From Bacilli bacterium (lineage in GTDB: Bacteria > Bacillota_I > Bacilli_A > ML615J-28 > CAG-313), in contig JAFTPH010000040.1 in NCBI GenBank assembly GCA_017463365.1, forward strand, positions 1 to 33,595: a DNA stretch of 33,595 bases, in the 5' to 3' direction. Under the pieces are notes generated by a model. The model saw only the letters and a program-made list of their open reading frames with translations. It was not told where the DNA came from and searched no databases. A program made the translations under genes and the position numbers. This document shows positions 7,908 through 9,015 of the stretch, piece after piece. Numbering within the stretch: position 1 is the stretch's first letter; each line of letters opens with the position of its first letter.

Positions 7908-7935
7908 AGAAAAAATGTTGTCTTTCGACAACATT
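7908..7935 (-). terminator. Terminator of the toxin-antitoxin operon
   Basis: On the minus strand AATGTTGTC and GACAACATT form a 9-bp stem capped by a GAAA tetraloop, followed by TTTTTTCT. It lies about 70 nt downstream of the toxin stop codon. Confidence 0.8.
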
Positions 7936-7950
7936 GATATTTCATAGTAT
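7931..7950. repeat. Direct repeat, copy A (downstream of the toxin gene)
   Basis: A 20-nt segment identical at 19 of 20 positions to 8827-8846. On the minus strand both copies run straight into a terminator stem, and the similarity fades inside the stems. The two copies enclose the whole toxin-antitoxin module. Confidence 0.8.
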
Positions 7951-8002
7951 TCCTAACTGCCACAATATATATTTTTTATAAACAAATGGCAATATAATTC
8001 AC

Positions 8003-8269
8003 TTAATTAAAATTTTTTAATATATCATGATGACCAATATCAACTAATATTATTAGTTCTTCATTTTCAAAATACCATATTATTCTAATATCCATATTAA
8101 TGCTACTTTCATAAAGATCTTTTTGCCCTTTAATTTTTTTCGTTCTAAGTGATGGATGTAATACATTTTCTATAAATAATTTCATTTTCTTTTGAAACTG
8201 AACTTGCTCATTATTAGTAAGATTATTAAATGCTTTCTTAAATCTTTCGGTATATGCTAATTTATACAT
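8003..8269 (-). CDS. RelE/ParE-superfamily toxin
   Basis: An 88-residue protein with the family layout: MYKLAYTERFKKAFNNL helix, a second helix ending in HPSLRTKKIKG, then DLYESSINMDIRIIWYF and a C-terminal LVDIGHHDILKNF. These are the conserved H-P-S-L-R, the arginine of the central strand, and the GHHD near the end of RelE/YafQ-type ribosome-dependent mRNA interferases. The reading frame is intact. The SD AAGGAG is embedded in the last codons of the antitoxin gene, and only 3 nt separate the antitoxin stop from this ATG, so toxin translation is normally coupled to antitoxin translation. With the antitoxin frame broken upstream, coupling may be lost and the toxin only weakly translated. Confidence 0.85.
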   Translation of the reverse strand: MYKLAYTERFKKAFNNLTNNEQVQFQKKMKLFIENVLHPSLRTKKIKGQKDLYESSINMDIRIIWYFENEELIILVDIGHHDILKNFN

Positions 8270-8272
8270 AAC

Positions 8273-8539
8273 CTACTCCTTATTTTCATCTTTAAGACTC
8301 TTTAATAAATCATCTACATTGTCAAATGTATTATATTCAAATTTAGGATCCTCTCTTAATACTTGAATTTCTTCTGCTAATTTTAAGATATACTCTTTGG
8401 GGTACACTGCTACAGGCTCTAATTTAATGTTTCCATTTTCAATTGATACCTCAAATTTATCTCCTTCTTGTAAATTTAAATTTTTTACAATTTCCTTTGG
8501 TAAAGTGATTTATGACTTCTTTCTTAATTCAATAATCAT
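8273..8539 (-). pseudogene. AbrB/SpoVT-type antitoxin with in-frame TAA at codon 10
   Basis: The frame reads MIIELRKKS-stop-ITLPKEIVKNL, then LQEGDKFEVSIENGNIKLEP, an AbrB/SpoVT swapped-hairpin DNA-binding domain, and an acidic toxin-binding tail ending DLLKSLKDENKE. The total is 89 codons including the normal TAG. The internal TAA at 8512-8510 replaces the position where this family almost always has Gln (R-x-x-x-Q-I-T-L/I-P), so a single C-to-T change (CAA to TAA) explains it. Everything downstream stays in frame with no other damage, which indicates a very recent lesion, a sequencing error or suppression. The SD GAGG lies 5 nt before the ATG. No convincing in-frame restart follows the stop. 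Confidence 0.85.
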
Positions 8540-8559
8540 AATGTCCTCACTGTTGGAAA

Positions 8560-8598
8560 TTCCTACTTTCCTACTAATAGTGTATCATAATTAATTAT
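8560..8598 (-). promoter_or_regulatory. Candidate TA operator: tandem 8-mers and palindrome
   Basis: Upstream of the antitoxin ATG lies an exact tandem duplication of an 8-mer (8560-8567 and 8568-8575, AGTAGGAA on the minus strand). A 12-bp perfect palindrome (ATAATTAATTAT, 8587-8598) sits beside the likely promoter. AbrB-type antitoxins autoregulate, so these are plausible binding sites. The rest of 8599-8796 is AT-rich with no gene that I can support. Confidence 0.4.
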
Positions 8599-8796
8599 AA
8601 ATTTCAATATATTTAGCTATTTTATTTATTTAAATCCCCTTAATTTATTAAAAGATAAAATGTCTCTAGAAAATTTAAAAACTACTACAAATATGACACA
8701 AATTCTTGAATATAGGTAAACCTAATCTGTTTTAATATCTATAACGGACTATGTCTCTTTAAGTTTACTCACATCCATTCAATGTGATTAAACACC

Positions 8797-8830
8797 AAAA
8801 AACAAAAAAATGCCGATAAAGTATCGACAT
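8797..8830 (-). terminator. Terminator of the tRNA operon
   Basis: On the minus strand ATGTCGATA and TATCGGCAT form a 9-bp stem with one mismatch and a 3-nt loop, followed by T7-G-T6. It begins 16 nt past the tRNA-Gln CCA end. Confidence 0.85.
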
Positions 8831-8846
8831 TAATATTTCATAGTAT
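8827..8846. repeat. Direct repeat, copy B (3' flank of tRNA-Gln)
   Basis: Partner of 7931-7950 (19/20 identical, 896 bp apart). Its tRNA-side end coincides with the last base of the tRNA-Gln CCA. Confidence 0.8.
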
Positions 8847-8921
8847 GGTAGGCCTTACTAGATTCGAACTAGTGAAATGACGGAGTCAAAGTCCGTTGCC
8901 TTACCGCTTGGCTAAAGGCCT
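8846..8921 (-). tRNA. tRNA-Gln (anticodon TTG)
   Basis: A 76-nt cloverleaf. The acceptor stem AGGCCTT pairs with AAGGCCT, discriminator A, and CCA is encoded. The T arm is ACTAG-TTCGAAT-CTAGT. The anticodon stem ACGGA/TCCGT holds loop CTTTGAC with anticodon TTG, reading CAA/CAG. It is the second gene of a two-tRNA operon. Confidence 0.95.
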
Positions 8922-8930
8922 ATAAAAGAA

Positions 8931-9015
8931 TGGTGGAGGGGGACGGATTCGAACCATCGAACTCGGAGAGAGTGGATTTACAGTCCACCGCGTTTAGCCA
9001 CTTCGCTACCCCTCC
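8931..9015 (-). tRNA. tRNA-Tyr (anticodon GTA)
   Basis: An 85-nt class II tRNA. The acceptor GGAGGGG pairs with CCCCTCC, discriminator A, and CCA is encoded. The anticodon loop CTGTAAA carries GTA. A long variable arm, typical of bacterial tRNA-Tyr, precedes the T arm with TTCGAAT. It is first in the operon, 9 nt upstream of tRNA-Gln. Confidence 0.95.

Follow-up and report, generated by a model that had tools for sequence, protein, structure and literature searches.

The window, by which we mean the whole stretch of 33,595 nucleotides that was analysed and that makes up the entire contig C19 of genome bin G000 (1.74 Mb in 65 contigs, completeness 97.4%, contamination 0.03%), probably holds one of two copies of an AbrB/MazE-RelE/YafQ operon, in which the antitoxin was recently inactivated and the orphan toxin is tolerated through the paralogous antitoxin. 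Judged by its sequence, the window copy as assembled is a degraded descendant of a type II toxin-antitoxin operon. The architecture of such an operon is present, with two small adjoining co-directional genes of which the antitoxin comes first, and this order was kept in 23 related loci where both genes were visible. A full-length antitoxin beside the toxin is absent because of a TAA at codon 10; the second copy, on contig C45 of the same bin, does have one. The features of the window copy, the fold being a prediction, are:

8273 to 8539, minus strand: frame of the AbrB/MazE-type antitoxin, 88 codons from an ATG at 8539 to its own TAG at 8275-8273, interrupted
8510 to 8512, minus strand: in-frame nonsense codon TAA at antitoxin codon 10
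8003 to 8269, minus strand: intact toxin gene, 88 amino acids, RelE/YafQ fold, ATG at 8269
8276 to 8281, minus strand: Shine-Dalgarno sequence AAGGAG of the toxin, inside the final two codons of the antitoxin, duplex energy -9.3 kcal/mol
8273 to 8407, minus strand: frame from the sole in-frame ATG, GTG or TTG past the stop, a GTG at codon 45, giving 44 amino acids of the C-terminal half

Re-reading of the minus strand returned exactly the coordinates, strand and frames of an earlier sequence-only reading, and the intact toxin and the nonsense codon in the antitoxin that it had described are borne out in the assembly. The same applies to the toxin Shine-Dalgarno sequence, which it had placed within the last antitoxin codons with a 3-nt gap: we found AAGGAG at 8281-8276, and the three nucleotides between the antitoxin TAG and the toxin ATG are GTT.

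With an X at the position of the stop, the antitoxin matched the Pfam family MazE_antitoxin (E 4e-9, 36.7 bits, cut-off 24.7) and TIGR01439 (35.4 bits, cut-off 28.3), and its match to the AbrB domain was above cut-off as well. Profile scores of the toxin were each just under their cut-offs (YafQ_toxin 29 bits, cut-off 30; ParE_toxin 22.3, cut-off 23; RelE_StbE 27.2, cut-off 27.9), and its sequence matched RelE structures weakly (best E 0.018). A toxin structure was predicted from 17 aligned toxins (pLDDT 85.8, pTM 0.74). PDB matches of this model were RelE, YafQ, YoeB and HP0894; in Foldseek it matched structures of the H. pylori HP0894 type, M. jannaschii RelE and E. coli YafQ (five matches at E <=0.001, TM 0.5-0.6). 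The top rows of VIA-align were RelE-superfamily toxins throughout (best Z 9.3, rmsd 2.6 over 80 residues; six chains at Z >=8). The model thus predicts a RelE-type fold, shared with archaeal RelE (VIA-align Z up to 9.3) and with YafQ of E. coli DinJ-YafQ and HP0892/HP0894 (Foldseek E 2e-4 to 3e-3, TM 0.5-0.6; VIA-align Z 6.6-7.6, values below 8 being such as may reflect a common structural arrangement). Identity to YafQ and HP0892/HP0894 is, however, 15-26% in the Foldseek alignments, and the window partner is AbrB/MazE-type and not DinJ-type. Decay of the toxin as the cause of its harmlessness was considered and rejected, as all 27 columns that are invariant across 16 other aligned toxins are kept. 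Its last residues are changed by a 1-nt length difference in an A/T run. Since the model has low confidence in that tail, and since the toxin of a related locus (L013) ends in another, different length change, the altered end was not counted as inactivation.

To establish the ancestral state of codon 10, we compared 27 related loci (L010, L011 and L013-L037, duplicate fetches dropped). An antitoxin was present in 23 of these, none with a stop over the part visible, and was not seen in the remaining four (L031, L034, L035, L037). Codon 10 was Gln in all 23 readable antitoxins, that is in 22 related loci and the C45 paralogue (the L029 antitoxin begins at codon 15, which leaves codon 10 unreadable there), and Gln10 was likewise found in 20 of 20 sequences in an alignment of related antitoxins. 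Each of the five closest copies (C45 and L013-L016) has CAA at this position. The Gln consensus and the single C-to-T change that had been proposed from the sequence alone are thereby upheld, and the Gln codon is ancestral. A conserved start downstream of the stop, which had been named as evidence to the contrary, was not found in these copies: the only restart codon, the GTG, is absent from all five.

Codon changes confined to the window copy, as assigned by parsimony on six sequences and small in number, comprised four synonymous, one missense (codon 85) and one nonsense change in the antitoxin, and eight synonymous and two missense changes in the first 85 codons of the toxin. With a neutral missense expectation of 0.80 for the antitoxin and 0.82 for the toxin, the binomial P values are 0.0065 and 4e-5, respectively. 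This missense deficit indicates that both genes were under selection for most of the window copy's branch. As the rest of the operon shows purifying selection, the stop is either recent, in line with the very recent mutation that had been suggested, or a consensus error. All four synonymous antitoxin changes turned a third-position A into G, three of them in GAA codons (to GAG) and one in a GTA codon (to GTG).

Among the 23 antitoxin-bearing loci the toxin was full in 17, had a stop or frame break in four (L011, L029, L030, L032) and was partly matched in two (L033, L036); the antitoxin was broken in none. The latter six operons, with an open antitoxin and a broken or partly matched toxin, are the reverse of the window copy. 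Toxin-first decay is the usual direction among relatives, and the window copy went the opposite way. Since antitoxin loss is rare among relatives, a special circumstance is needed to account for it.

A second operon in the same bin (C45:12107-12640) is intact, has Gln at codon 10, and encodes a toxin 92% and an antitoxin 90% identical to those of the window pair. By eye, 41 of the 44 residues in the C-terminal half of the antitoxin are identical between the two copies; the toxins show 7 differences over 87 aligned positions, and the copies differ by 39 nucleotides in 264. The sequence-only reading had held that one of four cases must apply, namely a very recent mutation, a sequencing error, read-through of UAA, or loss of toxin translation by polarity. 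Recent mutation fits, and the list omitted protection in trans by an intact second copy, whose presence in the bin removes the paradox of an unneutralised toxin. The stop codon is genuinely present in the assembly, and most likely it marks a loss of recent date that the cell tolerates because the copy is redundant. In the mechanism that we propose, the nonsense codon would recently have inactivated the window antitoxin, and the C45 antitoxin would bind and neutralise the window toxin in trans. The C45 antitoxin may in addition bind a 22-nt promoter block common to both copies and so repress the window operon in trans, and weaker initiation would lower the dose of window toxin further. The window copy would then be heading towards a pseudogene.

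Cross-neutralisation between homologous toxin-antitoxin pairs is documented in PMC7354431, which also describes some pairs as highly specific, with few residues deciding. Such strict specificity, taken with the 7 differences in 87 toxin positions, counts against neutralisation by the C45 antitoxin. Moreover, since C45 is a separate contig of a metagenome-assembled bin, co-residence of the two operons in one cell rests on binning. The C45 contig also has a tRNA-Leu gene and open reading frames that by eye are rnr- and smpB-like, and it correlates with the window in tetranucleotide composition (0.985) and codon usage (0.954). Composition is not decisive here, because GC content is 25.9% in C45 and 29.0% in the window and because two relatives have short loci that correlate with the window almost as closely in tetranucleotides (0.979 and 0.981). 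C45 looks chromosomal and native to the genome. A KilA-N gene adjoins the C45 toxin-antitoxin pair.

Upstream of the window operon the following signals were recognised, the 22-nt block being a candidate operator for the AbrB-type antitoxin:

8602 to 8607, minus strand: -35-like hexamer TTGAAA, 17 nt from the -10
8579 to 8584, minus strand: -10-like hexamer TACACT, which is TATACT in C45 and L013 and TATAAT in L014-L016
8560 to 8581, minus strand: 22-nt block identical to the C45 copy, beginning within the -10 and ending before the Shine-Dalgarno sequence
8545 to 8551, minus strand: weakened antitoxin Shine-Dalgarno sequence AGTGAGG, which is AAGGAGG in five close copies

Duplex energies were computed against a 16S tail. 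The antitoxin Shine-Dalgarno duplex came to -6.5 kcal/mol in the window copy versus -11.2 to -12.0 in five close copies; that of the toxin, at -9.3 kcal/mol, lay within the range of the other copies (-5.7 to -9.9). This combination suggests that initiation of the antitoxin in particular is weakened. Both the weakest -10 and the weakest antitoxin Shine-Dalgarno sequence among the six close copies belong to the window copy. Its promoter-like site scored 9 of 12, compared with 10 of 12 in C45, and such sites were no commoner in these regions than in shuffled ones (10 vs 9.9; 8 vs 12.0).

These observations also bear on other explanations of the tolerated stop. The stop could be absent from the main sequence of the living population, as a sequencing or consensus error or as the variant of one strain in a mixed assembly. 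After all, only one base differs, the assembly is a draft in 65 contigs, and the 1-nt length change in the A/T run at the toxin end could have the same origin as the stop. However, the same copy has two expression-lowering non-coding changes, in the -10 and the Shine-Dalgarno sequence, which fit real decay. Nor would simple mis-assembly account for it, since the paralogue has diverged too far, with 39 differences in 264 nucleotides; the long genes of the window read open, which is weak evidence. We consider an error or strain variant unlikely.

Somewhat less likely still is that too little toxin is made to do harm, the loss of upstream translation uncoupling that of the toxin and a weaker promoter adding to the effect. 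The 3-nt spacing, the toxin Shine-Dalgarno sequence within the upstream frame and the weakest -10 of the six copies are consistent with this, but the toxin Shine-Dalgarno duplex (-9.3 kcal/mol) is stronger than that of the window antitoxin (-6.5), so that independent initiation of the toxin is expected. The polarity invoked by the sequence-only reading survives in part. Loss of translational coupling could still act, but the Rho-dependent route looks closed because a profile search found no Rho above the family cut-off in G000 (best 41 bits vs 509; 8 of 14 control genomes reach the cut-off). Two weak Rho matches in G000 lie together on contig C63 and are probably F1-ATPase subunits.

We regard it as improbable that the antitoxin is split, with a restart at the GTG of codon 45 producing a 44-residue C-terminal fragment that neutralises the toxin without binding DNA. 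In MazE-type antitoxins the C-terminal half binds the toxin, and the fragment spans this half; the GTG, moreover, is the only in-frame ATG, GTG or TTG past the stop, and the five close copies have GTA in its place. Against this, its Shine-Dalgarno duplex (-2.1 kcal/mol) falls within the range of copies that lack the GTG (-0.9 to -4.6), and the GTG could easily be chance, since all four synonymous changes unique to this antitoxin are A-to-G at third positions. Translation restart 102 nt after a stop is also inefficient.

Read-through of UAA to full-length antitoxin, for instance by the tRNA-Gln(UUG) encoded ~0.3 kb upstream, which is near-cognate for UAA and the sole Gln tRNA found, is highly improbable and this earlier suggestion is abandoned: a suppressor tRNA or a recoded TAA is contradicted by the absence of a stop-reading anticodon among the 32 tRNA genes found and by the use of TAA as terminator in 22 of 25 window open reading frames of at least 120 amino acids, and the closeness of this tRNA is probably coincidence, since it is kept in five genomes without the operon there.

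The surroundings of the window operon suggest how the redundancy of a recently inactivated copy beside an intact one may have arisen. The features concerned, of which the cassette is inferred, are:

8931 to 9015, minus strand: tRNA-Tyr(GUA), the upstream neighbour
8846 to 8921, minus strand: tRNA-Gln(UUG), a gene that would read CAA, its 3' CCA forming the left boundary of the inserted cassette
7950 to 8845, minus strand: inferred cassette of ~0.9 kb carrying the toxin-antitoxin pair
8827 to 8846, minus strand: left copy of a 20-nt direct repeat, 95% identical to the right copy, spacing 896
7931 to 7950, minus strand: right copy of the 20-nt direct repeat
7949 to 7972, minus strand: degenerate right cassette end, matching the family motif at 19 of 23 positions, with 4 mismatches in 24

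In five family genomes (G002, G003, G004, G008, G012) the tRNA-Tyr/tRNA-Gln genes lie directly upstream of the homologue of the next gene (27-31% identical) with no pair between them, which indicates that the window pair is an insertion directly after tRNA-Gln. The other eight relatives having the next gene showed no tRNA-Gln within the fetched flank. The pair follows tRNA-Ser(GGA) in L013 and tRNA-Leu(CAA) in L014, in both cases beginning right at the CCA. Because repeated left ends occur at the cassette junctions of relatives, we do not favour the view of the direct repeat as a target-site duplication. Against that, the flanking repeats of the window match the common left end no better than shuffles do (8 and 9 of 23 positions, shuffle fraction 0.41 and 0.22), and their match to a second left-end type is weak (13 and 14 of 23; 0.012 and 0.003, ten comparisons having been made).

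In its relatives the pair is bracketed by two motifs, a left and a right end. When 15 family genomes were searched at up to three mismatches, the right-end motif occurred 19 times in nine genomes and the left-end motif 22 times in seven, with no occurrence of the reversed-pattern controls of either end in any of the 15. The two toxin-antitoxin copies of G000 itself miss this search, their right ends having 4 (window) and 5 (C45) mismatches. Ten of the 22 left ends follow the CCA of a tRNA, with eight different tRNAs involved: His three times (once with a 1-nt offset) and Leu(CAA), Leu(GAG), Ser(GGA), Arg(UCU), Arg(CCG), Gly(GCC) and Gly(UCC) once each. Another four come directly after a right end, as head-to-tail cassettes, and two overlap the 3' end of a large serine recombinase gene; of the other six, three follow a looser right-end-like sequence (by eye), one is at a contig start and two are unplaced. 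Cassette ends at a tRNA CCA or head to tail were seen at 7950-8846 of the window and in L142-L146, L149, L150, L153, L156 and L158-L161, with toxin-antitoxin, AAA/DUF4143 and, by eye, XRE-type genes as cargo. At L145 2517 and L147 4035, left ends come after tRNA-3'-like sequence without a complete tRNA gene (by eye), and these remnants are possibly scars of tRNA-targeted insertion. One and the same toxin-antitoxin cassette in G011 and G003, which belong to different genera, differs at 2 of 264 antitoxin nucleotides, which points to recent movement between genera.

The recombinase gene was found at two loci:

L148 5274-7058, minus strand: large serine recombinase gene, 3' end overlapping a cassette left end
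L144 6758-8536, minus strand: large serine recombinase gene, 3' end overlapping a cassette left end

The protein comprises a Resolvase, a Recombinase and a zinc-ribbon domain, and its versions in G000 and in G008, which is of another genus, share 99% identity; its last residues are encoded beyond the cassette junction and differ between the L148 and L144 copies. Its adjacency to the ends suggests that this recombinase may move the cassettes. Its patchy presence among the ten genomes with a right or left end counts against a simple link between the two: a full, near-identical gene is confined to G000 and G008, two contig starts in G011 carry pieces of its 3' part (91% and 98% identical), the homologues in G009 are all distant (30-38% identical), and no homologue at E <=1e-20 was found in G001, G002, G003, G006, G010 and G012. 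The cassettes could be moved in trans or by another enzyme, or could be old. Carriage of the pair by phage or plasmid was considered and rejected, tblastn having returned eight plasmid records, all below 60% identity, and one phage record (48.8%); viral contigs yielded no relative, nor did the right end match any of them exactly. As a proposal that we hold tentatively, and somewhat short of probable, the pair would be one of the cargoes that an undescribed, integron-like system carries in what appears to be the Anaeroplasmataceae. In this system, small cassettes lacking a recombinase of their own would be placed precisely behind the 3' CCA of many different tRNA genes by a large serine recombinase, and be stacked head to tail. 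Double acquisition would free one copy from selection, and the window would have caught antitoxin loss before toxin loss.

With respect to known systems, RelE next to AbrB/MazE is counted 27 times in Table 2 of Makarova et al. 2009 (PMC2701414). Like those pairs as presented there, the window pair has the AbrB/MazE antitoxin first, a RelE-superfamily toxin second and tight spacing; unlike them, it has a nonsense codon in the antitoxin and a second intact operon in the bin. The VapC orphan toxins of a mycobacterial survey, as cited in PMC7354431, similarly lack a working partner beside them and are paralogous to complete pairs, whereas the window toxin keeps a nearly unchanged partner remnant, as in a process caught early. 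The cassettes resemble integron cassettes and tRNA-anchored islands in their small cargo with conserved ends, their head-to-tail arrays and their insertion at tRNA genes. Tyrosine integrases are named for the tRNA-anchored genomic islands of Islander (PMC4383910); here, in contrast, the boundary lies right after the tRNA 3' CCA and the enzyme encoded next to the ends is of the large serine recombinase type. Inspection by eye showed neither a regenerated tRNA end at the right cassette ends nor an attC. The right end does contain GTTAGGC, which we take to fit the attC R' core, with no matching R'' box seen. Among the matches listed in a search of open-licence literature (titles and abstract starts), none described such cassette arrays.

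Altogether, the loss of an antitoxin beside an intact toxin clearly exemplifies, in a natural setting, the sequence of decay that is expected only when a second antitoxin is present. That conserved cassette ends at tRNA CCA are shared between genera suggests that genes are being shuffled by a dedicated system in this gut lineage, which has received little study, and this system would seem to be the more novel part, compared with the stop codon. The proposed system carries addiction modules as well as other accessory genes, and this wider context may matter more than the stop.
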